Made by a program: the position numbers and the translations under genes
The notes under the pieces: model-generated
Database searches by the model: none
Told to the model about the DNA's origin: nothing
What the model saw: the letters and a program-made list of their open reading frames with translations, nothing else
NCBI GenBank assembly: GCA_951230915.1
Contig: OX579637.1
Coordinates: 8,618,001-8,682,000, forward strand
DNA from: Antitrichia curtipendula
Taxonomy: Eukaryota > Streptophyta > Bryopsida > Hypnales > Leucodontaceae
Direction of reading: 5' to 3'
DNA length: 64,000 nt
Shown: positions 2,254 to 56,521 of the stretch, piece by piece
Layout of the letters: every line of letters starts with the position of its first letter
Numbering within the stretch: position 1 is the first letter of the stretch

Positions 2254-4016
2254 TTATCGTTGACTCGACAATAAGACGAGATTGCAACCTTTGGGCAATC
2301 AAAGGATTTTATATATATTAATATATTAAAGTCTTAAATTATTGAATAATCTCAAAATTGAACAATTATAATGATTTATCCTCGAGTCAACAACAAAATT
2401 GAAACTACACTTTGTCCAAATATAACAAATAAGGCCTTTTGGAGCCAAGTTGGAGTGTTTTGAGGTGGAACCCATTGCTTGGAAGGCAATCTAGGTCTAG
2501 GGTCCCATACACTCCCCACCGGCCAACATTATTTTAGACATTTTACATTGAACACAATTTTTGTTGTGTATATCCCATATGAATTGTTTCACTTTTTACC
2601 ACCATACTTATATAAAGATCATCTCTTTTCATCCATGATGCTCATCCGTGCATTTTTTTTTTTTTGCAAAGCATGCCATGTGGTTGCCCTTTGTCTAAAA
2701 TTTTCACATATGGTCAACATTTTACCATAGACTGTAGTAAATTTTACTAACTTATCCATAGGCAAAATTGGTCTATTTGCTGACATGGACTCCTTATGTC
2801 TTCCTGGATGTCAAAAAAACAAGTCTATGTTTTCTTTGACATCACTCACGAAATGCTTGTCATAGTTGATGTTCATGCGTTTTTCGAATAATATGTACAG
2901 ATTCCCCGCAACATCCAACAGAATCTGCATAAAAAAGCCCGTAGACCGACCAATGTTGAGACATCTATACAAACAAGGCATGTTTTTTGCTAGCGCCCCC
3001 CAAAAGCGGATTTCTTATAGTGTTGTGAGGGAACTGATTTCTTCTTTGCTATTACAAAATAGTTCTTTGGTTCTGGGTTTTGTTTATTTGATAAGAGTAG
3101 AGAGTGTTGACCTCAAGAGTGGTGAGTCCCTATCCCTTGAAAAGATCAATAGCGGACCCGCTGAGGGTAAAATAGGGGTATCTAAAACCAGTTACTTGGA
3201 GAGTTGTAGCCGGAATCCAGAAGAGAATGGATTTGGATTAGAATCCGGAAAATACTGGTTTCCGGAAGATAGTAATGGATTGTACGGATTGCTTGGGTGT
3301 TTGGGGAAGTGATATTGGATATCCGAAACTTGGAACACCATACTAGAATTCTCTGGGACAATAACTCGTGTCATCTTACCATGTTTTGGTGTTAAAGATA
3401 CTTACGCCTAGATTACGCGTTCGACAGATTTGACACAGCTCTGCAGAGCTCTTTTAGTGAGATTTCTAGCGTCTGCACATCTCTGCCCAACTCCTGAGGT
3501 AAGCTTTAGTTTCTATTGTGTTCCAAGCTTCAAGTTCATTGGGTTTTTTAAATCTCGACTTACCAATGTTGTACATAACAAGGGGTTTAGGATTTTTCTT
3601 ACAATGATTCTTCAAGTGATCCAAATAGTGTTGATTGCACTATTTTTTTTCTTCCTTCAAGTTCATAAGCTCTCTTCACTACCTTTGCATTCTGCACTCT
3701 CTAGGGTTTTAGGATTTTGGTTGAAAATTGCTTTGTGTAACTTGTATGTGCAGTGCATTTGAGTTTCATACTTTTGTGTAGTACTTGCTGGAAGTAGTGT
3801 GGACAAACATTGCAGGCTGCAAAAGGATTGAATTTCAAGGTTTGTGTTTCCTGTGACCTGCTAGTATTTTTTTCATTGTAGACATGAGCATAAACACATT
3901 TTACAGTATTCAACTGCAATTTAAAACCAATGCTAGTCTAGAATTAGGATTTTAAGCGAAATTAATATTTTTCAACACGCAACGACTGACAATGTTTATC
4001 CTTGAGTTGAGGATAA
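2254..4016. repeat. Dispersed decayed 21-bp palindromes, variant C
   Basis: The half-site TTATCCTCGA, or a C-to-T decayed form of it, followed by one base and its inverted copy is seen at 2254-2274, 2376-2396 (right half poor) and 3996-4016. A weaker trace lies near 4042. The 3996 copy has both central TCGA halves changed to TTGA, as expected of methylated-CpG decay. The architecture is the same as variants A (4.6-5.3 kb) and B (50.5-56.5 kb). No open gene of that family is readable nearby, so this may be the remnant of a third related element. Confidence 0.5.
2990..3426. mobile_element. 3' fragment of the TTCCGGAA-family element
   Basis: This segment aligns by eye with the last ~410 bp of the element at 59,967-63,780. 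Shared blocks include GGTGAGTCCCTATCCC versus GGTGGAGTCCCTGCCCC, an AGCGGACCC block, and CTTACGCCTAGATTACGCG versus CTTACACCTAGATTACGCG. Both end in CGACA, here at 3426. Like the full copy it contains TTCCGGAA (3259-3266) and related CCGGAA words. No 5' end or target duplication was found, so the copy is truncated. Confidence 0.7.
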
Positions 4017-4567
4017 ACTACTAATGGAATACATTAGAAGTCTATCCTTAATTTGACAATAATGATGCTCCTTAATTTCTAAGTCACCTCCACAAGGAAT
4101 TCATTTTGCTCGGTTTAGGAGAGTATGTCTGGAATTGGAATATTTTAAAGATTGATGCTTTCACTTTGGAAGTTTCCACTAACTACATTTTAGTCCAGTT
4201 TTCTGAGGATTCCACTGACTACTTTTTAGTTCAATTTTTTGAAGCTGAAGTCATTTGAAGTTGTTGATATTGATGCCGAGCGCTCCAGTTGTTCCTTCCT
4301 CCGTGCTTGATGGTCTGAGAGTTTTGGATTCAGCAGAAGGCTATAATTTGTTTCACTAATTATGTACATTGCTTGTGGTTGATGCAGGGAACTATTGGTT
4401 TCTTTTTGCTTCCGAACCCTAGGAGCTGAGGAGTTTTCACGGGGTTCCAAAAAACAGGAGAAGATTCTTCAATTATATACAAGTCCAGAGTCCTGCCATG
4501 ACACTAAAAGTGAGCATGAATTCAATCGTTTGCAATTCTAGGTTGGGATCATTTTAGGTCAAAGCCA

Positions 4568-5267
4568 GTTTAGGTCGACTACTCTTTTTTTCATTGTACA
4601 CAAGATTCAAACATGAAAGATCTACTTTGGTCGACTCGAGCTAAATGATAGAATCCAATCTCAAGAACATCAAACTACCCATAAGAAAACTATGTCCACA
4701 ATCAAACATCGAGGGTACCATCACAGTTAGGTCGAGTTGACCTAAATAGTCAATCCCACATAGGCAGAGGGCTTAGAAAAAACAAAACTCTACTAAGGCA
4801 GAGAACAAATGCCAACACCAGGGCACCTTTAGAGTTAGGTCGACTCAGCCTAAATGATCACCCTCATTCAGCCAAAGGGTCTGGAAGAGTAACAACTCTA
4901 TAAAGACACAGGAAAAAAGCCAACACCGAGGGCTTTTGTAGAATTAGGTCGACTTGACCGAAACGGTGACCTTCATCTAACCAGAGAGTATACAAAAGTA
5001 AACCACTTCACTAAGACAAGAAAGAGAAGTGTTAAGAATATTGTCCAACATCTTTAAGGTCGGCTTGAGCTAATTCCACAATATAACCAGATCATACATT
5101 TATGCACAACTTAAAAACTGACATACCATATGCTATATGCAAACTTTAGGTCGACTCGACCTAAATGCATTTACCTCACGTCAAGTACAACTAAAGATGT
5201 CCTAACTCATTCGGTCAGAATTAAAGTAAACCTTGTCGTCTTTGTATTAGGTCGACTTGAGCTAAAC
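4568..5267. repeat. Array of ~8 palindromes (variant A), about 100-bp spacing
   Basis: Palindrome copies start near 4568, 4626, 4727, 4834, 4943, 5054, 5145 and 5246, with spacings of 58, 101, 107, 109, 111, 91 and 101 bp. The 5145-5165 copy is perfect: TTTAGGTCGA, one C, then the exact reverse complement of the half-site. The others keep GTCGAC-type cores with C-to-T changes. The intervening DNA is also a degenerate repeat, with words such as GCCAACACC recurring. The array ends immediately before the ORF starting at 5304, so it occupies that gene's 5' region or promoter. Confidence 0.85.
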
Positions 5268-5303
5268 TATGAATATACTGATATGTTTGTTTGCATTGAT
5301 AAG

Positions 5304-5828
5304 ATGGATGAACAAATACCAAGACTTGAGACATCCTTCAAGCAATGTGAAGTCGCTCGAGACGAGGAGGATGGGGACGGGATTGACAATGATGGAGAAT
5401 ACTGGGAGTTTCTCAATCCCGAGAAGATGGACAATTGGAGCCTCAAGATGATACCATTCAAAAACCTGATATGCTTCTCGTACAAGTACAAAGACAATGA
5501 CACATATTACTCCGTCTCGTTCTACGAGAAAATCAAAGACATTGCCCACGACAAGGGGAGCATAATCAAAATACACTATGTAACAGCGCAAACAATAAAG
5601 AAAAAAGAAGAATCGTGCCATTTCACTCTTGTGTTGGACTTCTCGAAAATTCCATTCAATATCACAGTGTTCCTAGAGACCCTCAAACCTACCGAGTACA
5701 GGACTGAAATTCCCAAATTGGAGAAGAAGACTGACAACAACTTCTTTCGCACTCCAGCCGGGAAGACAATTATTGACAAGACGTTGTGCAATCGACTGAG
5801 GTTACTTTTCGTGATCTTTGAGGTTTGA
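5304..5828 (+). pseudogene. First ORF of palindrome-A element (unknown N-terminal domain)
   Basis: The 174-codon reading frame is preferred from the ATG at 5304 because the protein from there aligns best with the minus-strand ORF beginning at 55,628. Both have an acidic N-terminus, then a K/N-x-x-x-WS motif (DNWSLKMIPF here, SKWSFGLNRF there), then alternating beta-like hydrophobic stretches. The frame stays open upstream to 5130, but that part overlaps the palindrome array. At 5826 it meets a TGA. Related sequence continues in another frame (KAKLESTKRNMAVQTV), so the ORF is the front of a longer broken gene. I do not recognise the domain. It is probably the N-terminal module of the ParB-like/methylase-like protein that follows. 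Confidence 0.6.
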
Positions 5829-7830
5829 AGGCAAAGCTAGAATCCACAAAGAGGAACATGGCCGTGCAAACAGTGTCTCAAGAAATGCCGGCTCAAGGAC
5901 GGGAGGGACAAGCTTCTACGGGAACACCAAGTACACAGAAGAGCCGTGGTGCTAAGAGAAATCAGTAGTCCAGGACACCACCTCCGCCGCCGGCAAGAGG
6001 TAACCTTGCCTCTAGTTCCGAGAGGAAATCAAAGCCTAAGAAGCCTAAAGAACCAATGCTGGGTGAGACTAGTTTTGCATCGACAATTACTAACATCCCA
6101 AAGGCTCACAACCCTCAACGTGAGCACAATTACAAAGTATTTGACGAGGCCTACAAGAACTACTAGGCTACTTGCACAGACGCCTATGTGTTTGCGATCA
6201 ACGAGAAGATGTCAATCTTGATTGACCAACTTATCTCATTGCTAGCGGATATGAACATCCGAAGCCATAAGGATCGGCTTGCTACAGACGTCATGCATTT
6301 TATATGCATATGCCCGACAAGTCCACCAAGCAGACTCTGTGCGTCATGCCCATGAACCAAATTGTGAAACCGACACTTGAATCTTGGGACCAAATCAAAG
6401 AGGGCAACTCTACCTGATTAACAGCCAGCATAGTGTGACGGCCAACAAGATGATGGTGCAAATGAGATTGAATGAGTCCATTCTCAAACATATTAGGGAG
6501 TGAAATTGCTACATTGTCTATTTGAATGACAACAAGAAATTGAGGTCCATATTTGCCTACTGTAACAGGATAAACCATTTTGTCGCCATAAAGCCTTTGT
6601 GGTCAACTAACATTCTTGGTGCACGAAGTGTTTGGGAGAAAATGGGAACCCAAAGGATCCCTCCCCGTTGGGTACGATGTCGAATACAAGGCGTAAAGCC
6701 AAGGACAAGGCCAATCTTGTCAAATTCAAGGTATCATTCTATCAAGTGAATATTCAAGATATCAGAGTCCGAAAACTTGATCCACAAATTCTTCAAGTAG
6801 ATGGGGAACCTCTCCTACGATGACATGAAGAAGCTTGCGACGCACATCTTGAAGCAAACACGGACAAGCGATACATAGAAGCGAACACACAAACATCCAA
6901 AGGTGACGATCAAGGAGGTGGCTTCAGTGCTTCAGAGTTGCTATACTCACAAAGAATAGGTAGAGCGACGCAAGAAGAAGTATCTTGTCAAGAAGGAGTT
7001 GAACCATCTACGCCCGAACTTGGGCCTCATTAACGCATTCAATAAAGTGAATGTGGATAAATAGAGGGAATTCAAGAGGAATTGTTGCATCACCAATGCA
7101 ACAACAAATGTCCTCCTCGAGCAACCAGGAGAGGACTATTTTAGGAAAGCCAAGCAGACCAAGGCCAAGAACAAGAAGGTTGCAGAAATATTGCCCTACT
7201 CTGCAAAAAAATTCAAAGTCTTACTTGAACATCACTCAAATTTTGTAAAGCACATTGCAGTTGCACGCTATAGACCATATAATATAGCTATCGACAAGAA
7301 CTCACCTTAGCCATCAGGAGCATGGACCGAAAAGAAAACATTGGAAATAAAGTTTGGAATCCTTGATTTCTGATATGCTCCACGGGTTTTCAACAAGGGC
7401 AACTGTACGCCACTGAAGCCGTATTTCTTTTCGGCTATGAAGTCCTTCCAGGAGGCCAAGCAACCTCGACTGAAGAAGAACCTAGCGCGGCTCTTTATCT
7501 GCTCCAATTTAGTTGAGCAGAATCAGGCCCTGCACTACATGCAGACAAACGAAGTCCTGAAGGATTTCAAGATGGATTTTGCAGACTATTGGCCCGCAAA
7601 GGTTGAGCGGATGGGAGACTACTCCTCTAACAACAACAAGGCAATGGAGAAGATTTATCTCACAATCTTACAGAACCTCAACAACACCATCATTATGACT
7701 CCAAAACCAACATATCGAGCCCCTAGCACAAACGTTTTTAGGAAGCCCTGGGCTTACAATGAGCTGAAGTACAGGATTCACAACACAAAGCTCCGAATGG
7801 AGTTCTACTTGAATATCTTCATCATCACCG
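5829..7830 (+). pseudogene. Broken ParB-like / methylase-like element gene, 3' truncated
   Basis: Several frames together follow the order of the minus-strand gene at 55,628-52,623. A Lys/Pro-rich linker lies near 6000-6060. A segment reading SWDQIKEG (6388) continues after a frameshift as LINSQHSVTANK (6411-6446), then KHIRE, a stop, NCYIVYL and INHF. Its counterpart in the other gene is SWDDIKKG, IINDQHSVQASK, YIVWTLD and NHL. Near 7770-7815 the text KYRIHNTKLRMEFYLNI matches KWRIYTKELRMELYLQI, which in the other copy leads into a putative SAM-binding FAG motif. Here homology stops at about 7830, where the hAT-derived minus-strand sequence begins. The QHS motif resembles ParB/DGQHR signatures; that assignment is tentative. 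There are many stops and at least three frame changes. Confidence 0.55.
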
Positions 7831-10800
7831 CCTTCACTAGCTCCATGTTCATCTCCTCCATTGTCACCGTCTGTGGTGTAGTGGCCCTCTACTTTGGAGT
7901 TCTCATTTCGAAGCTCCACAGTTATTTCACCATGCCTACGACTACGTTTAAATCTCTTATGTCGTTGAGCTTTAGGTTCCTCCGCATCAGAATTTATAGT
8001 GGGGCCTCCTTGTACTTGAGGAGCAACATACGCTGGAGTAGACAAAGTTGGTCCTGGAACATACGTATTCAAGAATGGCTCTATCACCACGTTTGGGTCT
8101 CTGACCCCAATTCCTAGGAGAGGGCGTTTAGAAGACCTAGACGATAACGCTTCGTTGTTGACTCGTCCACCTCTAATACCATGACCTCTAATCCCAGCAC
8201 CATCTCCGGTCCTTGCACGACCCCTTGCTCCTCCATGGACGGTAGTCCTTCCACGTCCTTATTGATATTCACCCATAGTGTGGTGAACTACGGGTCGAGG
8301 AGCGGTAGGAGGTCTACCACCCCTTATAACATTTGAAATGCTTTGAGGCGTCAATTCAACATTTCCCACTAAACCTAGCCTTTCTTGAGAAGGTTGACGG
8401 TGAATGCTCGAAGTTGCGGGAGAAGAAGGGTTAAGGAAACGTTGCATTGGTGTATTCCGGTCAGAAAGAACAGTACGCACTGCAACCGGTGGGGGTATAC
8501 GGTCTTCATCTTCAGGCCGATCAATAAACGCAAAAATATCACTGGGATCTAAAAGTTCGAGGTCAGAATGCCTTGTTTCCGCTATTGCCCCCCCCCCCCT
8601 TGACATTTTGTGCAATCGGTTGTACCATTCCTATATTTCCAATGTTTTGGCCATGCCGCCCTTCGACAACTTCATTGCAATTGCAACCACCCACTCTTCC
8701 AAGCCCCCTACTACCATCACGATTGCAAACGGATCCTTCAGAATTCTGGGTTGCATTGTTCTTCAGATTTCCACTGCCATTTCCAGGTCCATTTTCTTCT
8801 TTGTTTTTTGGAGGAGGGTCATCGTTGTTGTTGGAGGGACCATTATCATCATCGAGGTCCATCACATCCAAATCATCACTCTCCGAAGGTAGAGGTTGTA
8901 CTTCCGGAAGAATTGGATTTTGAGAACCAAGGGGAGGACTTTGGTGAGGATTGGGTCCCCAAGGGCCCTAGCGACCATGGAGGACTTCTTCTTCCACTTC
9001 ATCATCATCTCCGTAATAATTTCTAGCTTCTTCGCGGTGATCGGCCCCTGCCCTCCACAAATCTAGATTTGGTCGGTACTCTTGGGGTGTTTGGTTTGCT
9101 TCCACATCAGCCTCTTCCTCAGCTACCAATACATCAAATTCATGATTGCGTTCATCTACCGGAATGGGGCCAAGGGCATCTGGGTCAGAATCCTCCGAGT
9201 AGATATTAGCATCGTACCAACGAACCGGATCAGCCCCCGGTCTTTGCTGAAGTACACGGCTATTGGTATAAATATATACCAATGATTTAACCTTCTTAGG
9301 GGCTAACCGATTCCGGACCTTGTTGTAGACAAAAAAATACATACTCCAATTCCTTTCACACGAGCATGTTAAACACGTCAATGCTAGAATACGCATGGCA
9401 ATCTTAGATAGTGCTTGATCTCCAACCCTGTGCCACCACTGGTGGGGAAGCATCTGTGTCAGCCGGATGTCGGGTGTCTCCGCAGCACTATATGGCCCTG
9501 TGCCCTCCTTGAATTCTGTTAATTCCGCCAGCACGTCGTTAAACTATACACCCACTACATTTGCCATTTTGTGGATGACTCGGTACAATGTACGGAGGGC
9601 AACTCCATCAGCCCTAAGCGCCACGTTATCCAAGAGATACGGATTCAGAAGTGCCCCGGCATAGTGAACATCCGTAAAGACCATGTCCCACCTTGTTTGG
9701 AAAGACTCCTCCATGATGGTGGCTATGTCATCTTGTAGGTTGAAGATTGGCTCTCTTAAAGAAAACACATGGCTTCTCAAATTGTGCATTACGAGCCACG
9801 CCCGACTCATAGCTGGTTCTTTGCCATCAAATATGCGCAATGCCTTCAACACGTCTTCAGTCATGTGCACGTAATTCACGCATCGTTGCCAGATGCCCAC
9901 ATCTTCAATATTTGACACCACATTACGTGCAGTCGTAGCTGCTTGCGGTCCATTCTATCTGTTTCGCAGACCATCAAAGTAATTTTGAACGCGTGCATGA
10001 TCTTTCAACCGTAGTAGTACTCCTTGAAGTTTCTCCAGTCGGTGCAACATGAGGAAATTACAAGCAAAGCAGGTTTCGTTTGGCACTACAAGCTGAAGGT
10101 TCGAACTCAACTCTTGAAAAGCAGACATGGTCGCATGATGGTTTCGAATGTACTGGCACAATCTTCTTGCCCTCTCAATTAAATCTTTGAATTTAGGTAC
10201 TTTGGCCCAATCTTCCAACATGAGATCCAAGGCATGTGCCATGCAGCCCTGCTTGAAAATGTGGGGGTACGTGTGAACGATATCATCCAATGCTCTAAGC
10301 ATGTTCCCCTGCATTATCCGTACACACCTGCGTCAGGTGTTTTAAATCCACTTTCTCAATGAATACTTTCATTGGTCCGCTACGTAGCGCATGTCCTTTT
10401 TGTTGCCGGTAGTGTCAATGGACGCCAAAAATACATCACCACTAGGGCACGACATCATTACATTCATTAGGGGTCTCCGGTTCACATCATCCCAACCATC
10501 AGTGCATATCGACACTCCATAATGCTTCATTGCAAAACCAACTTTGGTTCTGATTTGCTTCTCGATTTGCAACCTCCTGGGTTCAATCAACCTAGTCCTG
10601 AATTGATGATAAGAAGGTGGACTGTATTCAAACTTTGCCACTGAGGTTGCCCTCACAGCCTCAATAAAGGCTGGATTCCTTGCCACATTAAATGGCACGT
10701 TTGCCTTGTAAAAAAACGATATCCACTTGTTATCGAACTCCTTCCTCTTTGCAATGCTAAAAACATCCTTCATACATTGCTGAAGTAATTTCCCAGATCT

Positions 10801-11238
10801 TGTGGAATTTGATGCAGCAAGACTTTGGGACCTCTGTATTGGGTCATTCCCATCAGGAAGAGTAACCTCTTCAGCTTGGTCTCCACCGAGGCCCACTCTT
10901 GTCACTTTGTTCTGAGTGGATTGGCTTGAGCTTGCGACTGGAATCACTCTCGATGGACCACCCAAAATTGATTCTTCTTTTTACATGTCCTCGAAGCTCA
11001 ATTGTTGCGGGACAAAGTTTGCACAATTTGCAAATCGATGGCGCACAGCTCGTGGCGCACTAAGACAAATTGACCTCTCGGACTTCGTGCAATATCCAAA
11101 GTGAGCAAATGCACGCTCGCATTTATAGCTGAATGTCGCATTGCAAAAAACACAGCTCACTTTATTCCCATTATCAAAGAAATTATACCATGGTTCCCAT
11201 TCTTTTGTTTGCCTTTGTTGACTTCCCATTGCGTTCAC
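7830..11238 (-). pseudogene. hAT-family transposase with BED finger and DUF659
   Basis: Five open segments (11238-10981, 10965-10369, 10314-9955, 9921-9544, 9534-8968) lie in one frame, separated by stops TAA, TGA, TAG, TAG and TAG, with no frameshift. The first has a BED-type zinc finger (WYNFFDNGNKVSCVFCNATF with later His). The second carries a DUF659-like region (GFAMKHYGVSICTDGWDDV, and GDVFLASIDTTG). The third has QGCMAHALDLMLEDW. The last has the hAT C-terminal dimerisation signature (SCERNWSMYFF then NKVRNRL). Downstream, a low-complexity Asn/Gly/Pro/acid-rich tail continues in other frames to about 7830. The length suits an autonomous hAT transposase (about 750 aa plus tail). It would cut and paste hAT DNA in the nucleus; this copy is dead. 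Terminal repeats and the 8-bp target duplication were not located. Confidence 0.85.
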
Positions 11239-11466
11239 GAGGAATAGAAATGTATTCTTCTAGGACATAGAAGAGGCTATTACACCGAATGAAAAAACAA
11301 AATAACAGTTAGCGCCAATCCACTGCTTGAACTGATTTTTACATCACCTCAGCAGCAAACCAGGGCCATTTGCCACCCAAGTAGACTCACAAAGAACTCA
11401 AACTGAATCGAAGTTCAAAATATGAGGCCAAGATGACAAATGTAGGGAAGTCACAATAGTGGGGTT

Positions 11467-11477
11467 GCCTTTATACC
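11467..11477 (-). promoter_or_regulatory. TATA box of the hAT transposase gene
   Basis: On the minus strand this reads GGTATAAAGGC, about 230 bp before the transposase ATG at 11,238. It sits directly at the edge of the GGACG-rich island. The RING gene at 19.2 kb has the same arrangement (CTATATAAAGG beside an island). Confidence 0.6.
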
Positions 11478-11482
11478 CTGGG

Positions 11483-12230: not shown

Positions 12231-12399
12231 AATCATAACCAACTTATATTCTTTTGGCTTTTTGTTGAAGGCTTTATTTTGGAAATAAATAGCTACAAGG
12301 TTTTGGATTGAAATTAAATTAAAATTATAATGCATTGAAATGTATTAGAAGGATTTGTTTGTGCAAAAAGAGGCTACAAAGGTATAGGTATAGGTTTGG

Positions 12400-16980: not shown

Positions 16981-17006
16981 CATAATTTGCGACTGCTTGA
17001 GGCTCT

Positions 17007-19213: not shown

Positions 19214-19320
19214 AAACTCGGTATGTCAAAATAAGTCACCTTGCACAACACCAACGACCAGCTCAAGGAAGAGGTGGAAGATCTGGAAAATGCAGGGCAG
19301 GGACAAATGAGGCGGGGATG

Positions 19321-19839: not shown

Positions 19840-21416
19840 TTGGTGGTTCTAAAAGATTGTACAATGACAACAGAAGGGGGTGAGTCATCGAGTCACCGGT
19901 CGGTATTTGAAGACTTGGATGCAAATTTTGAGGTGGTACATCTACCATTGAACAAATTAGTGGCTTCAGGGTCATCCAATCCTTCATCATCCAGTAGGTC
20001 AAAGCTCAAAAATCAACCTAATTCAGATATACCCCCTTACAAATATGTGCTCGAGGCTAGAGCAATAGCGGTAACCTTTTACAAACAACGAAGCTCTAGA
20101 ATGATGTCCAGAGAATACGTGAACTACAATGAAGAAGGATACCACAACTTGACTAGTGAAGTGCAACGACAGTTGGAAACCATATTTAGAGCATTAGAGT
20201 GATTCAACAATTATCAGGATTACTAGTTGCACTCTGAGTGGTTGGATAAACAAGTGTCGCAGTTGACCACCAATATTGTGGCAAATTGGTGTTATTACAC
20301 AAAGAAGAAGGAGGATGGTAGTGATTGGGACACGCATGAGAAGGAGTTTGCTTTGAGATTGATCTAGATTCAAAAGTTCTCTCAACAATATTCTTCTTCT
20401 CGTAGAAAGAAACAAGCACCATGGAAAGCAACGCTTAAAGACCAAATACAAGCTCATTGCGTTAGCGAAACATTCAAGTGGCTGGAAAGTTACGTGAAAG
20501 TGAATCCCATGCCAAATCAGACCACGATTGGATCATATGGGACTGTGAGGAAGGTGGTGCTGACAAGACTACAAAGCATTCCCAGTTGGATTTGCTTTGC
20601 CGGAAAGACTTTGAAGACCTCAAATGAGAAGGAGAAGCGCCAAGATATTGTGAATGAGGTAGGAGGGGGTGTCTAGTGATACATCTTGGTATCATAAGAC
20701 TTGCGTACATCCATCGCAAAACAATGGAAGGCTACACGCTATGGTGGAATGGAGGCTCTTTAATTTCTTTTTTAGCCAAGTACAACTCAAAAGTAAGCGA
20801 ATCATTGGAGGTGGATGACATCACAAGACAACATGATACAAGTTTGACGCAAGAAGAACTCGGTTGGATTGCAACTTATCGCAGAAATTGCGTGAATTTG
20901 GCTTTATCATTGCTTGTCACAGTGGAAAAATGCCATGAAGCACAATATTTACACAATGACATTACTCCATCCAATGTTTTGCTCCATTTTGATGAATGGA
21001 AAGAGAACACAATGTACATAGGGATTTGCGACTGGGGGCTTTCTGGTCGAGTTGTAGAAAAGGAACCATCAAGGTATGGTTATCGAACCATGGAGGAGCT
21101 CGAACGGGAGAAAAATCAACGAAAACATGCAAACCCCAAATTGTTCTATGTGTACAGAGAGAAAGGGTCAGAGACCTCGCTTGAAGTCATGCAAAAAAAA
21201 AAGGTGTATTCCATGGCTGCTGATGCATATGCAATAGGGTGGATAGCATATCAAATTTGGAAAGAAGAATGGGATTCCAAGTATTTTACGACCAAAAAAC
21301 CAGAGCAGTATCAGAATTTGAGGACTAAGCTGTTGCGCCTCCAGAAAGTAGATGTAGGCAAGAAGGCGTCTGTACCTGACGTTCTAAACACTTTGAGGAA
21401 GGCACCTCACTATTAG
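19840..21416 (+). pseudogene. Protein-kinase-like gene with HND and DWG motifs
   Basis: The reading frame from 19,840 (or MTTEGG at 19,864) runs to 20,676 with four in-frame stops, then shifts and is open to 21,416. The first half is a non-kinase N-terminal region. A glycine-rich loop reads IGSYGTVRKV near 20,525 and a candidate ATP-binding Lys lies in CFAGKTLK. After the frameshift come EGYTLWWNGGSL (hinge region), LHNDITPSNVLL (catalytic loop, HND for HRD, ~20,950), CDWGLSGR (DWG for DFG, 21,030-21,038) and YSMAADAYAIGWIAYQIW (helix F). The catalytic Asp, Asn and metal-binding Asp remain, so the ancestor was probably active. A second copy is split at 24.6-43.8 kb. Substrate is unknown. Confidence 0.8.
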
Positions 21417-45660: not shown

Positions 45661-45667
45661 CTGGATT

Positions 45668-46479: not shown

Positions 46480-47014
46480 GAGATTTCTCGGTCTTTAATC
46501 TATGTCGAAGTCAAATGTTGTCGGTTCTTTCTATGACAAGATTTCTTGAATCGACTTTTTCAACCCACCAATAAAATTCCCAAGAGCTAAAGCATCGACG
46601 CTACGCATGTTGTCGATGGTAGTATCTAGAGGTTTGGAAACATTCTCAGAGTGTGTGCTTGACATTGCATTGAGACTTCGCTGAATTTGAGCTTGAAGTT
46701 CTCGGACCCTTTCACTGAGTTGATTCTCTCTCTTTTGGTTGTTGCCTAATGAAGCTCAAAGTACCCAAGAGGTTTTGATAGCCCTCGTGCTCTTGGATTT
46801 CAAATACCAAACCCGTGGTTAAGCTGAGCCATGATGATTTAGTTGTAGACTGTTTGTCATACCAAAAAGATGCAGTATCATCTAAATGAATTGGCATTAA
46901 CTCGAGCCAACTCTCCTCAGTTCTATCACTATTAGCCATACAAGCTCGTTTGTATTGTTCCAAAAATCTTTCAGGGTCTTCTCTTTCTTTCCTGGTGAAA
47001 ACGGGTATAGACAC
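46480..47014 (-). pseudogene. Ty3/gypsy-type gag fragment
   Basis: The open frame 47,014-46,712 contains EDPERFLEQYKRACMANSD, SWLELMPIHLDDTASFWYD and a Trp-containing SSWLSL, the usual core of plant retrotransposon gag. Downstream, a second frame continues with a coiled region (NQLSERVRELQAQIQRSLN) typical of the gag C-terminal part. No zinc knuckle, protease or reverse transcriptase follows. Confidence 0.75.
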
Positions 47015-47115
47015 TATGTTGATGATAATTGATATTTTATTGTTTAAGTTGATTACAATAGGTTCAATGAATTCACTAGTATAGAGGGGAAAATTTGCTC
47101 ACCATGCGTATAAAA

Positions 47116-47508
47116 CTATTTGTTTTGGGCTGCTTCATCGGCTTTTTGATTCATATCCCTCAAAATATGGCATATTTTTATTGATTCAAAGTCTTGCTTT
47201 AGTCGGGTAATCACCTCGTAATACGGTTGCAGGTTCTCTACACACACCTCCCAATTCCTGGCAACTGGATTGTAGACCAACTTTGAGTCACCCTGCATTT
47301 GTAATCTTTGAATTTTCTTGTTGTTGGCTATCTCCAAACCTGTAATCAATGCCACATACTCTGATTTGTTGCAAGTTAGCTTCTTGCTTAAATCTTGATG
47401 GGAAACTTCTTTCATTTCTGAAGGGCTTTCTAAAACCACTCCAGCATTAGACCTCAAGGCTTTCAAATGAGAACCATTGAAATTTAATTTCCAAGCATGC
47501 ATTGACAA
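47116..47508 (-). pseudogene. Retrotransposon RNase H domain fragment
   Basis: A 130-codon open frame starts WKLNFNGS, then AGVVLESP, SKKLTCNKSEYVALITGLE, LQMQGDSKLVYN and HILRDMNQKADEAA. This is the RNase H fold with D, E and D catalytic positions; the first Asp is Asn here (FNGS for FDGS). It degrades RNA in RNA/DNA hybrids during reverse transcription. It lies 5' of the gag fragment on the same strand, the reverse of normal gag-pol order, so the two come from rearranged or separate insertions. Confidence 0.85.
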
Positions 47509-47519
47509 TTAAGATTATC

Positions 47520-48070
47520 TCTTCTTTTGTGGTAGCTTTGTCGTTCAAATTTCAATTTCAAGGCCTTATTCATTAAATTGAGACAATTTGGCACTTTTGA
47601 GACTTTGGAAATCGGGGTGTGAAGGTTCAGTGTGGTAACATTTGTTGAACACAAAGGTAAATTACCCTAGGCTTACAAAAAACAGAAAAAACAAACAAAC
47701 TATGATCATCCAAATGCCTTCAAGCAATTGAAGAGGGAAAAACATCAATTGATGAAATGATGGGAAACTTTTTTCACTGTTCTATGTCAAAACCAATTGA
47801 GCGGTCAACACAAAGCACCCAAAAACATACTCAGTAAGTTTAATGTTTTCAAAATTTTCAATACACAAAAAGGATGCAACTTTCAGTGATGGTGTCAGCA
47901 GAATAGAATCAATGGTGTAAATGAGTAAATCCATGTGGGCACCGGGGAGGCTTACTGTATGTGAAGCTCCCTAATTTCTGTAATTAATGTTTATCTATAC
48001 TTATTTTTACCATGCTTTTAATAGTAAAGGATGCTCAGAAGCCCATGGCTTCAAAAACTTTTCAGGCTAC
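47520..48070. other. Spacer, no supported gene
   Basis: AT-rich DNA between gypsy debris and the 48-56.5 kb element. No long terminal repeat pair could be recognised. Confidence 0.4.
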
Positions 48071-48071
48071 C

Positions 48072-49102
48072 CTAGACATCGTTATCGCCTGTACAATTAC
48101 TCTTGGTTGCTTCCAACGCTTTCAGCTTTGCCAAGCCCTTGAAAATATCCTCACGTCGAGAACGATAGTGGGGCCCACCTGCCTCGACCATCCCACCAGG
48201 GATGCCCACACTCTGCAAGCCATCTTCTTTTCGCTTCCTATTTCGAATGCTTGGAGAAACCTCGGATGTAGAATGAGATCTAGCCCCCCCACGAGGCGAC
48301 CTCGAAACCATTGTAGCGATATCATTTATGTACGGTAGTCCGGATCCAATTGATTTTGAATCGAGAGAACGACGTTGGTCTTTGATAATCCTCTGACAAA
48401 AAAGCGAATCAGTTGAGGGTGACCGCCGACCGCCTAACCTCCACAGACAGTGAAGGACGAGGACGATTGCCCTCGAGCTGAGGAACAGAATTCGCAATTT
48501 TTGCCCCAACTTCGACACTCCTCGTGTACCCAACTCGAGCAACGGGGGATGTCATCTCATCCATGCACATATGAGAATGTGCGAGGGGGCTCAGATGCAA
48601 ATCCTCGCCTCGAGGATCCGCACTACCGCCTCCGACGGTCAGGTCTAGCTTTCGACTGGTCCCAGACTCATTGCGGGGAGCCGGCAAAAAACAACATCCC
48701 TGAGCTCAAGACAATCGCTTCAGCGGGGACGGAGAGCAGATGGGAGTCCTTTCAGGGCCGCAACTAGGGGAACTGTCAACGGCGCCGTCCTCAACGTCCC
48801 CCTTTGAGAAGTCGATGGCCGTAGACGCTACGTCCTCTGCTGTGCGCATAATGAACGGGCCTGAAAACATAGAGGGCTTCATGCTCCCCCCATCGGAATC
48901 GGATTCGGATTCGGAAATCGACTTCTGGGATCAGGAAAGAAGACTCCTCGTGAGCCCGTGCCGATTGGGCAAGGTTCCAAAAACTGGAGCTTCCACCTGC
49001 ACGAACACAAGAGTAGAGATGTTTTCCAAGCATCAACCCTCCAACAAGAACACGAAGACAAGCATCACAATCCAAATGCACAATGAGACACACAAAAAAC
49101 AT
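48072..49102 (-). pseudogene. Low-complexity Ser/Arg/Pro-rich coding remnant
   Basis: Overlapping minus-strand frames (49,102-48,791; 48,687-48,409; 48,542-48,072) have biased composition (SRSPRGGARSHSTSEVSPS, RNRKRKEDG) and GC content like the ORFs of the adjoining element rather than the AT-rich flank. They probably represent disordered segments of an element protein, 3' of the phosphatase-like gene. No domain is recognised and the frame joins are uncertain. Confidence 0.35.
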
Positions 49103-49196
49103 GATTATGTGAATTCCAAATTGAATTTATTATTTATAAGTGAAATTCCTGTACAATATGTACACACTACAAAATTGTCTTCCGGTCGAGAGAAAT

Positions 49197-50224
49197 CTAC
49201 GTCCTACGCCCGTCGGGCTCTATCACTAAATTAAACGCCGGAAGTTCGAACCGCGAGCCCACATTTTGCGCGGACTCTCTCATCCCCTGGAGGATCCTAC
49301 GGACCTCCTCGAACGAAGAAGCCAGTGGGTCTCCGCCTATCCGATTCACAGACACATATTCCCGGAGGCCACCGGGTTCGCACTCGGATTCTAGACGCAA
49401 AAGTTACAGCGGGAGATCTCCCATGAGGAAGTTGTCCAGTCGTTGCAGGTGGCACCAGGAGCAGAGAAATATGGCATTGCCCTTCTCATTGCAGACACTT
49501 TTCTCGAGAGAGTCATCAATAAGAAGAGTGTTGTCCGCGGTGAAGGACGCATCCCCATCCAACATGGGGAACACCTGCTCCGAGAGCACCTTCAGAAACA
49601 CAGGCTTTGCCCCATCGTGAAGAAACCGCCCCCGCATGGTTTCTATCTGCCGACAATGCTCTTGTCTGAGGACTTCAAAATGGGCCCTGTTCCCCTTGAA
49701 CAGGAATTTTGCCACCATCTCAGAAGTCGAAAGCTTCATCGAGGACCACACCACTACCTTGGCCGTGATCTGCGAGATATCGTGAAGGAATTCCTGCAAA
49801 TTCGGCCTGCCGAAGACCGCTTTGGGACCGACAATGGTGGGATTCATATGACAAAGTATATTTTGTTCGACACTATATGGCTTAAATTTTTTAGCGTACG
49901 ATCTTGACTCGCAGTGGCACAGGATGCCGTTCAGGTCGAACACAATATTCAACCACTTTCCCCTCGGTTCGGGCACTACTGGCGAGACACTTCGCAGCAC
50001 GATCTCTTTGTGTTCCACCGATTCTACCTGATGAAAGCAAGACAACAAAGAAATGGAGTTACCTGTTTGAATGCAGAGTCAGGTGAGCCAGACAACGGGA
50101 CGGAGCATTGAAATCCACTAATTGATTGCTTGCTCCCCTTAGGAAGGGCTTTCACAGGCATCGGCCTGTGCAAACCAACAGAAATTTTTGGCTGAGTAAA
50201 AAAGACAGCGTCAACAGAGTACAA
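49197..50224 (-). pseudogene. FCP1/NIF-type HAD phosphatase-like gene
   Basis: A first block, 50,224 to ~50,063, begins MYSVDAVFFTQPKISVG. A second, from ~50,027, continues in the frame open to 49,404 and, past one in-frame TAA, to 49,197. The core shows KWLNIVFDLNGILCHC (motif I; DLN where FCP1 proteins have DxD), KVVVWSSMK (motif II region) and LLIDDSLEKS (motif III/IV Asp pair), then FLCSWCHLQRLDNFLMGDLP. FCP1-domain enzymes dephosphorylate Ser/Thr, classically the RNA polymerase II tail; the substrate here is unknown. With CAG/GTAACT and CAG borders the gap would be a 35-bp intron, unusually short. It may be cargo of the palindrome-B element, because a palindrome copy lies just upstream (50,501). 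Confidence 0.7.
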
Positions 50225-50500
50225 TTAGATTGACGTGCCTTTCAAAATACACCATGTCCATTTTTATTTACAAGAACAATAATATACATCATCTTATACA
50301 ACGTTGTCATTCGAGAGCGGATTAAATCGCTAGGCACTCCTACGCTATACTTCTCAAGACGGTGATTGCTGGCAGGAGTGTCTTTCAACGCCAATCTACA
50401 CAGGAGGACCCTCCTACCAAACAAAATACGTAAGGTATGAGTGACGCGCACTAGGGAATCCTGGGACCTCCACAACGATCAGATACACCTTGTTCAGTTT

Positions 50501-50520
50501 TTACCTCGACTCGAGCGTAA
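50501..50520. repeat. Palindrome B copy between phosphatase and disordered ORF
   Basis: TTACCTCGACTCGAGCGTAA, a one-base-shortened near-palindrome of the variant B type. Confidence 0.7.
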
Positions 50521-50582
50521 CCCGATACATGTAATTGATGTAAGTGCGTAGTGTCAACGTTAGTGGTTTAGACAGCAACAGC

Positions 50583-52307
50583 TCAGTCCGAACTCAAGAG
50601 GGAGTCATATGGGTCAGAGGATTTTATCTGTTCCAAATTGTCGGGGTTCGGTCCAATCGTTGTTGCAGCCGCCGATGCAGGTGAACCTCCATCGACTTCT
50701 TCCGGGACATTGTCCAGTAGGATGTCCTCGTCGTCCCCGTAATCCACCCGGTCGAGCTTCGGTGATCGCTGAACCAGTTTAGTTCCCTCCCGCACGGATG
50801 GCGGACGGGGAGAGACAGCTACTGCGGCAACCTCAACATTCTCACACGGCGCGGCAGTATCGCCGGTCTTAATGTCAGAGACTGCCGTCTGTGATTTACC
50901 CTCGAGTCGAGGGTAATCGCCAGCAACAATTGTGCTGGATGAAGGAGGTGCATCTGGAGGCCTTGTGTTGCTGACATCACCCGTTACCGCCAGGGCTGCA
51001 GGCGACAGCACGCGGAGTTGGTCGGCCGGCGTGGAGGCCACGATGTCCTCGGCAGCCGGAGAGCCCTTGGTTGGAGTACCCTCGTGTCGAAGATCCGACA
51101 TGCCCGTGACCAAGTCTCGTACCTCCGCCGACAGGTCCGCTGCGGGGCCAGCCTGGGAGGGTACTTAGCATTGCGTGGACTAGGAACGCTGTTGGCTCGG
51201 AACGGACTGTGATTGTGACACGACGAGGGCATGTTGGCTGGCAAAAAGGCTTCCATTTGCCTGGCCATGTTGTCCATCTGCGCTTGCGTTTTTTGGATTT
51301 GTTCCTTCAACTCCTCGCAAATCCGGAGGGCCTAGCAATCTGTTTGTCCTTTGCCGCCAGCTGATCCTTGATTGCCTTATTCCTTGCATCTTTTTTTGCC
51401 CTCCGCTCCATCTTGGCCTTGTGCTACCCGGTCTGGATTTTTTCTGGGGACTGGAGTTGTTCGGGGACAAGGGGGACCTCCTCGACCTCCTCGACTGGCT
51501 CACCCCACTGTTGATGTCGTCGAAGTCCGAGGAGCACAGAAGCGAATCCGTATCGACATTGCTCAAATCTACAGTGGGACACTCAACCTTGGACTTCAAT
51601 TTCGCTCCCTTCCTCGCCGTCTTATGCTAACGTCGTTCCCCGCCTTTGGAGGACTTCCCCGCAGCCTTCCTCTTGTCCCTGCGACTGGCGCGTGCCCACT
51701 CCTTTCGCTGCAGCTCAATGAACTCAAAGTCCGTCTCTATGTCTTCATCCACCATGCTAGGGATCTCCGCTTGGCCACGAGGAACAGCCTCCCATCGCTG
51801 AATGACATCCGTGTTGGTGCCGTACTCGTCGATACCTTCCATTCCCACACCCGGTTCCTTGCAAGCAGAATTAGGTAACAGCTTGACCTCCACCCCGGGC
51901 GCCTGATGAGTACCAGACGATGTCGCGCTGACGGTTGCTTGCCTCGGTGCGGTACCTGGCAGGACGTCCTTCTCCTGTGCACCCTCCTGATCACGCTCAC
52001 GTAATGCTGCGTCTTCACCAGTATTCCTCTCGTTGGATCTTGGAAATCTGGGGTCCCCTTCCGAGTTCCTCTCATGTTGAACGGGAGTTAACTCATCTCC
52101 ATGACTTCTATGATGTGGGTCTTCCGCAACGTCATCGTCATCGCATGAATTGCCCCGAACGGGTGGAGGCAGGTTGTTGTCACTGCCACTGCTCGACGAG
52201 TCCTCTCTATTCGATCCATCTGGACTGCTGGGAGGAGAAAGCAATTCCCCTACTGTTGGGGGGGAGACAGAAACCAACACCGGCGCCTCAACGTAGAGTG
52301 ATCGCAA
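50583..52307 (-). pseudogene. Long disordered acidic/Ser-rich ORF of the palindrome-B element
   Basis: Three segments (52,307-51,627; 51,599-51,180; 51,113-50,583) share one frame and are separated only by stops, so this was one ~570-residue reading frame. Composition is strongly biased: SPPSSPDGSN, EDSSSSGSDNN, SRRSRRSPLSPN, PQKKSRPGSTRPR, DYGDDEDILLDN. No folded domain is evident. It follows the methylase-like ORF after a short gap with splice-like borders, so it is probably the C-terminal tail of that protein. A perfect palindrome B lies inside it (50,896-50,916), read as DYPRLEG. Confidence 0.6.
50896..50916. repeat. Perfect 21-bp palindrome, variant B
   Basis: Half-site TTACCCTCGA, one G, then its exact reverse complement. 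It is in coding sequence of the disordered ORF, unlike most other copies. Confidence 0.9.
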
Positions 52308-52499
52308 GTACTACGCTGAGTATGGCAAATTCAAATGCAGAAAGTCATTCATATCCAAGTACGTACTTGAATATGTGTAAGCCCTATGCCTCGCCGTCAA
52401 TGGATTTTCCACTAGGTCATAGTAGTATGACCCATAGAGCTGCAGGAGTCATAAACAATCAAGTATTAGGCGACAAGCCATACAAAAGGCAAGGCCTCC

Positions 52500-52682
52500 A
52501 GTCGAGGGTAAAAGGGAAACAAGCGTCTCATCCGCCCTGGATACAGATAGGACACTGGTGCAACACATGAACTATTTAGCCTCGACTCGAGGGTAAATGG
52601 TAATCTCATCGGTAACTAACACTCATACGTTCATAGAAGGCGTACAATGAGATGAAGTAAGATATCTTCGTGTCGAGGGTAG
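52500..52682. repeat. Cluster of three palindrome B copies in a putative intron
   Basis: A half-site TCGAGGGTAA lies at 52,502, a full near-palindrome at 52,576-52,596 and a decayed one at 52,662-52,682. They follow a good 5' splice site (AAG then GTATGC, minus strand, at 52,688) that ends the methylase-like ORF. Confidence 0.7.
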
Positions 52683-55628
52683 GCATACCTTGGCAGCCAT
52701 GGCGCTCTTAGCTCCTGCAAAAATGCCCAAGACATTCTCGTTTCGGACTGCAAAGCATTGGAGGATCTGAAGGTAAAGCTCCATCCGCAATTCTTTTGTG
52801 TAGATCCTCCACTTGACCTTGTTGTTGTATTTCGCTTCATTGTAGTACAGAATATCGGCAGGGTGATATTTTGTTTCCACCCTGTCGCAGACAACATCCG
52901 CATGACTATCACCTCTTCTAAAGAGAAATAGTAGACGCACGTCTGGGGCCACTCTCAAGCAATTAGACACGTTGTCTAGACGCTTCGCCCTCGATGGGAC
53001 ATACACAGACTTCACGACGTCGTAGTCCGGCATGTCCACCGTCGCGAAATTCAGTGCGGCTTCAAAGTCCTCGCCACCGCCTAGAATCCAGAGCCAGACG
53101 CTGGCCTCTTTGGCATCTAGCTCTAGGTTGTAGCCATGAACTCGAGAAAAGGCAAAAGACTCAACGCGTTCTCGTGTGTGGCTGGCTTGTCCATTCCGGA
53201 CGTCCAATATGGCAAGTCTGAGGGGACGGTTGACGTATTTGTACATCTGCGTTTCCACTAGCACTCTCGCCTGGGCGTCCAGACCACGAAACTCGTATCC
53301 TCCAGATTGTTCACCAAGTCGGTACTTCGACTTCATAAACCTCTGGAACATTGAGGCCTCGTCCAAGAACTTCTCGCCAAGATCCTTTGCCCTCTTCAAT
53401 TTGGCGTCGTTTGTTAGGCGTTTACTGAAGAACGACGGCTTCGGATAGGAGAGAAGAAAATCCCATGTCGCAGATGAGAAGAGGTGCCTCTTCTTCCAAG
53501 ACCTCCAGACATTTAGGATGGTGTCATTATTATTGTCGCGTAGTTTGAGATCGGGTTTGACTGACATCATCTCCTCGTGGATGATTTTCTTCTTCTTCCT
53601 CCGCTCAACCCAATCCTGTGCCATCTGATTGTCCGGCACAAGAACCCTTGTCTTCCCGACCGACACTTTGGGGTGTGAAAATCGACGGTCTTTGGTCAAA
53701 TTCAGCAGATGCTGGGCGAAAACCTTGAGGTCGTGGTCTGTGAAGTGACCAATATGCTTGAAGAATTCTCTCTTCAACGCAAACGATTTCCGGGTGAAGT
53801 CGTCCATGTCCCGGAAGAGCTGTCACGTGACTGGTTCCACGAGCTCGCCCTCCGGGTACTTGGTGAGGAAATCCTTCCAAAGCTTCCAGATATCATCTCG
53901 CAGCGTGATGATCTTGATCTCGCTCTTGAGGTCCATGGGCGCTTTGATATTCTTTCCTTCTTTCTCAGGGTTGATATTCTGGAACCGCTTCACAACTGCA
54001 TCCATGAAACTCTGCAACACGATAGACACATTTACATTAGAACACCATAAACATACCTTCGTCTCGAAGCTATTCAGGCATCCATTGGAAATGACAAGAG
54101 TCACCGACTTCATACTACGCAGGATATCCATATTACGTTGCCCAAGTGACCCTAGCACTAGTCAGTGAAGTTACCCTCGACACGAGGGTAACTGTCTAGA
54201 GAGGTCATTCACCTTCCACTTGGCCTCGCTGAGGACAGATGCATTCCTCCTCTTCACGGGATCCTCGGCCATGAGAGTCGGTCAAAGGCAGTTGATCCAG
54301 ACGTTCAGGGAGCTAATGACTTGGCTTCCCCACGTTGGCTGAACGTGGTCGAGGTGATTTGTCGAGTTGTAGAATTGGGAGATGTTCACCAACTTCAAAG
54401 CATCCAGGGTCCAAACAATGTAGGCTTCCCACGTTCTGAGTTCCTACCGGCGCTGCTTGCTGTACTTTTCTATCTGGAGATCTTTGGAAGCTTGCACACT
54501 ATGCTGATCGTTGATGATCATGAACTTCCCTTTTTTAATGTCGTCCCAGCTCTGTGGCGGCTCTTTCAGCAGGCGGTTGCGACTGTCCACCGGTGTCAAG
54601 CAAAGCCGTTGTCACTCTCTGATGTGGCCCCGAGCGATCAAGTTGTGCTTCACGGACTCCGTAATCTTGTCCTCCATTCCCCGGATGACGTAATCGTCTC
54701 TTGCTTTTATGCACTGGTTGATGTTTACGAGTTGGGGATCCTCTCCCAGTATGTAGCAAGCCCGGTGCTCCGCCCAGAAGTCGCGCTGAATGAGCCCAAA
54801 CCTGTCTGCCACATCCATTAGCTCCTCGAATTCTGAGGTCTGCGCGACGTTCGTCAGAGCAGATCCCGAACTTCCAGTACCCGTGATAGCCCGCGATTTT
54901 CGACGCTTGTTCATTCCCTCAGCTGCTGAGGCACCGCCCGATTGAGTCTCAACGCGTTTCCGAGAATCGGATCAAACCTGCCCATGTCCGCTTGCGCCGC
55001 TCTCGGACCTTGGCGGCGCTAACAGGCTTCTCTCTGGCCCCGCAAGCTCTTGCTGTTTCTTCCGCTACAATCCGAGTGCTGGGCGAGGCTTTACGGTCTT
55101 TACAGCGTGCCTGTCCAGTGCAGTCCAGATGTGTAGTATTCTTTGGGCCGTCGTCGTGGGCGGGCCTTCCACCCACGGCAAGTATTTTGCCGTCCTGAAT
55201 GTTTGTATCAGGTGGTCAACCTTTGCGTCCTCCAGGAATCTTTCGATCTCCTGCATGTCGAACCTTGCTCCCGCGCTGACTCCGTCTACGACTATGGAGT
55301 GCATGTGATCACCGTCACTACCATCTACATTTACCTCCTGCAGCACGATGACAATGTACCGCTGACGGACGCACTCTATGTGCGACAGCTTCTCCTGTTG
55401 GTGCCATACAAAGAAGTTTTTTGTGGTCATTGTTTGGTACCGGAGGTGGACGAAATCCTGAAACCGGTTTAAGCCAAACGACCACTTAGAGACATTCCCA
55501 CGGAATTGCCACAATTTCCCGCATGATATCTCGTCGTCATCAAGGAACGGCTCCCCCTCATAAGGATTGACGAAAGGTTCCATGAAAAGTTGGGTCATCG
55601 TATAGTCGTAGTTGTCCTCTCCCGCCAT
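52623..55628 (-). pseudogene. ParB-like/methylase-like protein gene of the palindrome-B element
   Basis: From ATG 55,628 (MAGEDNYDYTM) one frame is followed to about 54,213 with several in-frame stops. A 61-bp intron (54,152-54,212) and a 45-bp intron (54,012-54,056) with GT-AG borders then lead to a long open frame 53,807-52,623. Order: an N-terminal domain shared with 5304-5828, a basic linker (MNKRRKSRAI), RLCLTPVDSRNRLLKEPP, SWDDIKKGKFMIINDQHSVQ (ParB/DGQHR-like core), YIVWTLDALKLV, TRKSFALKREFFKHIG, and finally KELRMELYLQILQCFA and NVLGIFAGAKSAMAAK. The last part resembles motif I of N4/N6 DNA methylases (FAGxG). No DPPY-like motif was found. The function as a sequence-specific DNA-binding or methylating protein is inferred. 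Confidence 0.55.
54152..54212 (-). other. 61-bp intron carrying palindrome B at its centre
   Basis: On the minus strand AAGTGGAAG is followed by GTGAATGACC, and the acceptor is GTGCTAG before GTCACTTGGG. The near-perfect palindrome (54,171-54,191) occupies the middle third. The flanking exons continue in frame with the rest of the gene. Confidence 0.6.
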
Positions 55629-55668
55629 CTTGAAGTAGTAGCTCCTGCGAAGCCCGTATATTGTTAGC

Positions 55669-56521
55669 TTACCCTCGACACGAGGCTAGAGTCTACATAT
55701 AATAGCGCTAGATCCTATCATTTGCTCATTCCGAGTGTCGATAGGTAAGATGCTGCTTTCCTTCGACTCGAGGCTATTTTAATTATTTGTAGACACCACG
55801 TTCTTGTACTATGCTTGCGTGACTAACGTCACGCTAGCTGGTTCTGGTGTGCCGTCTGATTATTTATGGGCATTGGTGGTTGTAAAGTTCAAGTTGGCAA
55901 TTTAGTGTCAGTGTTCTAGCATATCTTGATTTCGGTGTGCGGGGTCACGTGTGAGTGTTGGATTTACTAACGCGCTTTTCCACGGTTCTTGAAATTGCTT
56001 AAAATCATTGTTTCTACAGGTTACCTTCGATCCAAGGCTATTTGAGTGATCGCTGTGATAATTGGGATTTCTGCTCATTCGGATATGATTTTTGGTGTAC
56101 ATTGATAAACTACTTTCGACCCAAGGCTAATCTTACTTTGGGGTGCTTTGGCTTTCCTTAGATGTTCTCTCTGTGTGTCGGCCATTGCCTGTGTCTATTG
56201 TTGACCGCCATCGATACATTTAGCCTCGACACGAGGCTAACTGGACAAGTCCTTGGTTCAGGTTACCTTCGACTCGAAACTAGTGGGATGTTTTTCTTGC
56301 TTTCAGGGGATAGTCTTCGTTTAGATTAGGGTTCTTCTCTATATGTCTATATTACCTTCAAGTCGAAGCTAATCTAGATCGTCTGGTCGCTGACTTCTGC
56401 TAGGTATTCAGTAAACTTAGGTCCTTCACGGTGCTCATTTTGCATACGCTCGACAGAATTAGCTTCAGCTTGAGGGTAATTGTCGTTGGGCTGGCGGTAA
56501 TTAGCCTCGAGCCGAAGCTTT
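55669..56521. repeat. Array of nine palindrome B copies upstream of the 55,628 ORF
   Basis: Copies begin at 55,669, 55,758, 56,021, 56,110, 56,220, 56,263, 56,352, 56,459 and 56,501. Recurring spacings are 89 (three times), 107-110 and 42-43 bp. The copy at 56,220-56,240 is near-perfect with half-site TTAGCCTCGA. The array lies 5' of the first ORF, just as array A precedes the ORF at 5304. CpG-to-TpG changes are common. Confidence 0.85.

Follow-up and report, generated by a model that had tools for sequence, protein, structure and literature searches.

Family-specific palindromes in a group of large DNA transposons of the moss Antitrichia curtipendula

Palindrome arrays and their genes in the window

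The stretch analyzed here, a 64,000-nucleotide window of Antitrichia curtipendula (C5:8618001–8682000; the assembly comprises ~400 Mb in 303 contigs), contains two related transposable elements, A and B, in each of which an array of 21-bp palindromes lies immediately 5' of a gene for a methyltransferase-like protein. Each palindrome consists of two inverted half-sites around one central base (10-1-10), and half-sites are cited below by their outer letters, which precede an inner TCGA. Sites with at most 4 of 20 mismatches to the A, B or C consensus number 22 in the window and 0 in 20 dinucleotide shuffles made in 2-kb blocks; the palindromes are thus confirmed as real and far above chance. Five additional sites have 5 mismatches (5054, 48599, 52662, 54053, and 56110; shuffle mean 0.5), and those with 6 mismatches, including 4042, are at chance level, since the shuffles yield 5.75 and the window 7. 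The exact core TTNNNNTCGANTCGANNNNAA occurs four times in the window, at 5145, 50500, 50896, and 52576, which bears out the two perfect palindromes that a preliminary description of this DNA had reported at 5145 and 50896. The copy numbers given there (about 8 for A, about 15 for B, and 3–4 for C) are close to the strict counts of 6, 13, and 3.

The six A-type sites (4625, 4726, 4834, 4943, 5145, and 5246) and the five-mismatch site 5054 form an array (4625–5266; half-site TTTAGGTCGA) directly 5' of gene A. They are spaced by 91–111 bp, in part as a 108-bp tandem repeat. The right-hand core of these copies often reads TTGA in place of TCGA, possibly the sign expected of methylated-CpG decay, or else an ancestral change shared through tandem duplication. 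Eight of the 13 B-type sites (55669, 55757, 56021, 56220, 56263, 56352, 56459, and 56501), with 56110 among them, make up the array 5' of gene B (55669–56521). Two more lie near the 3' end of that gene (50500–50520 and 50896–50916, the latter within an open but unconfirmed frame), and the remaining three, 52491, 52576, and 54171, are intronic. The B half-site is not a single sequence but a pool of TTACCC, TTAGCC, and TTACCT.

Gene B is encoded on the minus strand, and the introns of these genes were inferred from splice signals. Its N-terminal part (54213–55628) comprises a conserved N-terminal region and an IINGQHS-like region, contains stops, and aligns with the database protein P0136 at 38% identity over 434 columns (E 2e-95). 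It is followed by the inferred intron 2 (54012–54212), with palindromes at 54053 and 54171, the second of which begins 22 bases past the 5' splice site. Exon 3 (52689–54011) encodes a degenerate β-class amino-methyltransferase domain interrupted by one stop at ~53823. Intron 3 (52440–52688, GTATGC...CTGCAG, for which the reading frame was also considered) carries palindromes at 52491, 52576, and 52662, 85–86 bp apart. The longest open reading frame of gene B (52626–53822, minus strand, 399 residues) has 59 relatives in the protein database and no Pfam match; a profile search with it returned 240 relatives, 120 of which were listed.

The B frame matches the stretch 6765–7820 of A on the plus strand (21% identity, E 3e-16). 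The remains of gene A (5304–7820, plus strand) comprise an N-terminal region, an IINxQHS-like region (~6402–6647), and a methyltransferase-like region (6753–7820), with stops and frame breaks. In tblastn searches with family proteins, E-values were 2e-29 for 6753–7820, 5e-12 for 6402–6635, and only 0.056 for the N-terminal piece. As the frames are homologous and each has a palindrome array at its 5' side, A and B are related elements that have diverged, also in their half-sites (TTTAGG vs. TTACCC/TTAGCC); both belong to a single group of large DNA transposons, in which each represents a family. A quick-search tree of the gene homologues (71 rows) includes gene A (win_A), whose position is not to be trusted because long branches meet there.

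The predicted fold of residues 173–381 is that of a β-class DNA methyltransferase, with a motif order, in our own reading, of IV to X-I. The catalytic signature [DNSE]PP[YFWH] is found in none of 126 exon-3 homologues, 48 of which have at least 380 residues. The DPPY position reads DxR in 34 of the 37 alignment members readable there, and FxGxG is mostly replaced by [FY]xGxK; methyltransferase activity is therefore doubtful. METTL14 and MTA9 are partner subunits whose activity is likewise doubtful. Sequence searches of the PDB gave no significant match, and phrogs and ncbifam gave nothing useful. The exon-2 motif IINGQHSxxAS resembles ParB/DGQHR by eye, and the AlphaFold2 model of this region has a predicted local distance difference test score (pLDDT) of 40. 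A ParB-like identity is not supported by Pfam or by hhalign comparisons with Spo0J and with three ParB proteins of the metagenome-assembled genome that holds contig L002 (described below).

Element anatomy and family-specific half-sites

To extend the comparison, 100 kb were fetched on either side of the window, giving 264 kb of C5; besides this region, from a single genome, the sample comprises a stray contig and fragments from databases. The gene homologous in A and B is present in eight copies in the 264 kb, those of A and B included. Element B begins at window position 47560 and continues past the window end (64000) to C5:8701222 (83222 on the window scale), with inverted repeats at 8665560 and 8701222 and a length of ~35.7 kb, any insertions included. 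Its left terminal inverted repeat (47560–47589, plus strand) reads AAGGCCTTATTCATTAAATTGAGACAATTT. The 30-bp ends are identical at 28 of 30 positions (score 50; best of 200 shuffles, 31), and both are flanked by TTTC, by eye a target-site duplication, in the sole full element so examined. The third gene of B encodes a NIF-like (FCP1-type) phosphatase (49407–50078, minus strand; PF03031, E 1.1e-11). Such a gene follows the methyltransferase-like gene on the downstream side in elements E1, B, and E8, and three more remnants occur at 8614.1, 8617.4, and 8717.8 kb on C5.

E5 and E8 represent the same element, with blocks 65–97% identical between the two copies. In both, a second gene runs divergently from the methyltransferase-like gene and encodes DUF7869 (PF25273; E 1.6e-36 in E8, 4.3e-15 and 2e-10 in pieces of E5). 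Relatives of this gene were located by tblastn opposite the methyltransferase-like genes of E1 and B; a paper search under the name DUF7869 found nothing. Palindromes lie 5' of both divergent genes, with a half-site common to both, in E1 (ATCAGC; C5 8555.8–8555.9 and 8564.1–8564.3 kb), B (8673.7–8674.5 and 8696.8–8697.7 kb), E8 (8744.0–8745.2 and 8751.9–8752.4 kb), and E5 (8592.3–8593.1 and 8584.2–8584.3 kb). The full element thus consists of a transposase-like DUF7869 gene, a divergent gene of degenerate methyltransferase fold, and a NIF-like phosphatase gene, with palindromes upstream of the two divergent genes and within introns.

Across the 264 kb, 36 palindromes score at least 5.5, as against 0.2 in shuffles. 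An unbiased 10-1-10 search listed 61 near-perfect palindromes, 37 of which, including seven of the nine perfect ones, were assigned to this family. Two 40-kb control stretches (C1 and C2), a mere 80 kb unmatched for transposon content, hold neither gene copies nor family palindromes. Of 75 stringent palindromes, 49 lie within 1 kb of an element gene, compared with 25% of random positions, and three fall in merged coding intervals, two of these really being in intron 2. Further half-sites in the region are ATCAGC, ATTAGC, TTCAGG, TTTAGCG, and TTACCT. In the E5/E8 family (C5:8584.2–8752.4 kb), whose arrays reach ~10 copies, partly at 58- or 101-bp spacing, TTTAGCG is accompanied by a change of the inner TCGA to GCGA (TTTAGCGCGA), so that the core is not quite constant. 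The preliminary statement that only positions 3–6 of the half-site differ was therefore too narrow, as position 1 (ATCAGC, ATTAGC) and position 7 (TTTAGCGCGA vs. TCGA) also vary in nearby elements.

The half-site variants follow the element families, as supported by two comparisons. The half-site profile distance was 0.229 within elements (20 pairs) and 0.480 between them (133 pairs; permutation p 5e-5) over 18 hand-drawn units, which contain 79 of 118 palindromes; the other 39, mostly chance-like, some C-type or adjoining a unit, were omitted, and one unit (E83) includes a junk site. Among the eight gene copies, protein identity correlates with half-site distance at rho −0.65 (permutation p 0.048), pairs with fewer than 60 aligned residues having been dropped.

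The C-type sites (2254, 2376, and 3996 at no more than four mismatches) belong only in part to one element. Two of them, 2254–2274 and 2376–2396, lie in a non-autonomous element of ~255 bp (2184–2438) with the terminal inverted repeat AAGGCCTTATTTGTTA; its 16-bp ends are identical, and no duplication flanks it in the window. A second copy, 81% identical, has inserted into the E1 gene for DUF7869 (C5:8565438–8565691). The ends of this small element start like those of element B (window 47560). Other decayed DNA contains the palindrome at 3996–4016 (two mismatches to the TTATCC consensus) and a weak one at 4042–4062, whose six mismatches place it at chance level. The proposal that each variant is confined to its own element consequently holds for A and B, whereas C is a mixture.

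Elsewhere in the window, open frames at 8971–11259 (minus strand) resemble a hAT transposase by eye, and a protein-kinase fragment is located at 20676–21416 (plus strand; PF00069, E 5e-9). Immediately beyond the left end of element B, frames at 46715–47508 (minus strand) resemble, also by eye, parts of a Ty3-type retrotransposon (gag and RNase H).

Relatives in databases and in another organism

The palindrome layout is retained in a distant relative from another organism, which has its own half-site. The 4.2-kb contig L002 (CADCWO010000074.1), found by pattern search, is filed under an uncultured Synechococcales cyanobacterium metagenome-assembled genome (MAG), and is probably a stray eukaryotic transposon contig in that MAG. 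It encodes the intron-bearing gene as far as part of exon 3, with 94% identity to P0075 and ~40% to P0130 and P0136. All five of its palindromes have TATCC beside the core. Four are 5' of the gene (2310, 2499, 2572, and 2681), and the fifth (820) lies 21 bases into an intron, the same place as window site 54171 at 22 bases. The record of P0144 is also assigned to a MAG, in this case of Nitrosocosmicus.

Alignment detected no related loci in the genome contigs collection, where the pattern matched only L002 and L001. The latter match (4150–4170) was rejected as a near-perfect palindrome arising by chance inside a bacterial coding frame, a warning for pattern searches of this kind. No related loci were found in the viral contigs collection by protein and alignment queries or by pattern, and tblastn of P0136 against phages gave no significant match.

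Some database homologues appear to read past a splice site into the intron, spelling the palindrome as amino acids. The pattern Y-x-R-[VLIF]-[DE]-D occurs nine times and [IL]-[FLIV]-[DE]-S-x-[IM] four times, i.e., 13 cases in 149 proteins vs. ~0.5 in shuffles, a contrast that is partly after the fact because both patterns were written after some tails had been seen. All of these translated palindromes are in the first 26 or the last ~55 residues. A third pattern, for the remaining reading frame, yielded none in these proteins. A broader back-translation score gave three hits at its top value vs. two in five shuffled sets (0.4 per set), and lower values showed no excess. P0003 contains two imperfect translated palindromes, one of which is counted among the 13. 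The implied half-site is TATCG in P0002, P0007, and P0008, inside one clade of five (support 99); TATCC in P0010, P0024, P0043, and P0071; TATCT in P0039 and P0071; others also occur.

Proposed function and comparison with known systems

The palindromes are rather likely to be sites for an element-encoded protein, the best candidate being a dimer of the pseudo-methyltransferase, that keeps the genes of the element active or unsilenced, site and reader diverging together. Such a protein would bind as a symmetric dimer, matching the 10-1-10 layout, at both promoters and in introns, and its binding would maintain the activity of the element's genes; the outer letters of the half-site would form the family-specific part of the recognition. 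The pseudo-methyltransferase is the favored reader, since it has a DNA-binding fold and its gene constantly accompanies the arrays. If site and reader diverge together, an element's control would extend to itself and to non-autonomous copies of its own kind, while related elements would escape it, and the retention of sites in the 255-bp element fits such help in trans. The effect would be anti-silencing, by analogy with the VANC proteins of Arabidopsis; transcription control without anti-silencing and transposase binding are possible alternatives.

Several points weigh against this proposal. The DUF7869 protein or the phosphatase could be the binder instead, and the predicted fold has a pLDDT of 76 and a predicted template-modeling score of 0.59, with low Foldseek TM-scores (0.21–0.32, by query, among the matches listed). 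Half-site sharing between promoters rests on three independent families, as E5 and E8 count as one, and no DUF7869 partner is visible for A, E7, E10, or E11. The 18 units of the distance comparison were drawn after the sites had been seen, and the half-sites behind the correlation were assigned by eye. Moreover, E11 mixes TTCAGG and ATTAGC, and E10 is mixed as well.

Were the palindromes binding sites of the DUF7869 transposase, comparable to the subterminal repeats of CACTA or Mutator elements, they would serve transposition and not gene control. Their position 40–70 bp from the ends of the 255-bp element (2254 and 2376 in 2184–2438), which keeps both although it is gene-free, is in line with this, as are the palindromes upstream of the DUF7869 gene. 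In the complete element B, however, the nearest good sites are ~2.9 and ~3.5 kb from the ends (the five-mismatch site 48599 is ~1 kb from the left end), and palindromes concentrate 5' of genes and in introns, which makes this explanation unlikely. It is a little harder still to credit that they are hitch-hiking sites of host or element transcription factors, with family versions arising by descent and no co-evolution with an element protein. Related elements such as E5 and E8 do share sites by descent anyway, and tandem duplication spreads one variant within an array. Yet both half-sites change jointly and the 21-bp layout is kept across elements with 24–59% protein identity (E5/E8 apart) and in another organism, and a single element holds the same half-site in two arrays that lie ~7 to 22 kb from each other. 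Palindromes also fold back as RNA, and several are intronic, some just past a 5' splice site, also in L002, as would suit hairpins in introns and 5' leaders whose paired changes reflect base pairing. We regard this as very improbable, given that the inner CGA/TCG is conserved as sequence beyond what pairing alone requires and that the gene-free non-autonomous element keeps its sites.

Recognition by an element-encoded reader can be extended to a more tentative scenario, which we hold as conceivable but short of probable. A bacterial-type methyltransferase carried by a eukaryotic transposon may have given up catalysis and turned into a fast-evolving reader that binds, as a dimer, a modular palindrome whose outer letters act as an address changed by each family. 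A genome would then host many parallel self-recognition systems that do not cross-react, an independent invention of the role of VANC, in which the phosphatase might join as a third component that targets RNA polymerase II. Should this hold, anti-silencing specific to an element would have evolved two times, in transposons that are unrelated, through unrelated proteins and with motifs of another design. Since the palindrome is modular, with constant inner and variable outer letters, a single genome would supply many natural protein–site pairs, which would open the evolution of DNA-binding specificity to direct tests and offer programmable readers. Transposons with a DUF7869 gene also gain an anatomy of ends, three genes, and control sites.

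A literature search, with most subscription journals outside its reach, found no description of this palindrome and transposon system. In predicted fold and in motif order IV to X-I, the family protein resembles the β-class amino-methyltransferases (M1.HpyAVI, M.BceJIV, CcrM, and RsrI) and the MT-A70 proteins (MTA1 and METTL3/14), and it lacks the catalytic [DNS]PP[YFW]. TnpA of the CACTA element En/Spm binds repeated motifs of its element and counters methylation; these motifs are subterminal and non-palindromic, and the protein is not known to be related.

VANDALs, to which the preliminary description had likened these elements, are Mutator-like elements (MULEs). Its suggestion of diverged specificity with a retained architecture and co-evolving recognition is partly supported, in that variants track element families in the distance and correlation comparisons, both promoters share a half-site, the controls are empty, and L002 keeps the layout. 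Membership in the VANDAL-type MULEs, in contrast, is not supported, the transposase-like gene in E5/E8 being DUF7869. Pfam detected no MULE domain in B at 47.5–57 kb (six frames), in A at 1–9 kb (three forward frames), or in single open reading frames, the part of B from window 57 kb to C5:8697.8 kb lying outside the scan. DUF1985 and DUF287 were unmatched in the scanned frames, 39 alignment members, and seven exon-2 homologues.

In Arabidopsis, VANC of VANDAL elements combines DUF1985 with DUF287 and has non-palindromic motifs of 8–9 bp (YAGTATTAY and AGTTGTCC), and its binding and the resulting hypomethylation were established by experiment (PMC5735166). The moss elements differ in their DUF7869 transposase-like gene, 21-bp palindrome, and candidate reader of methyltransferase fold. 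What they share with VANDALs is the family-specific motif array in non-coding parts of the element. In both systems, short family-specific motifs are repeated, often in tandem, mostly in upstream regions and introns, related elements differ in motif, and a protein of the element is the reader, proven for VANC and presumed here (PMC5735166).

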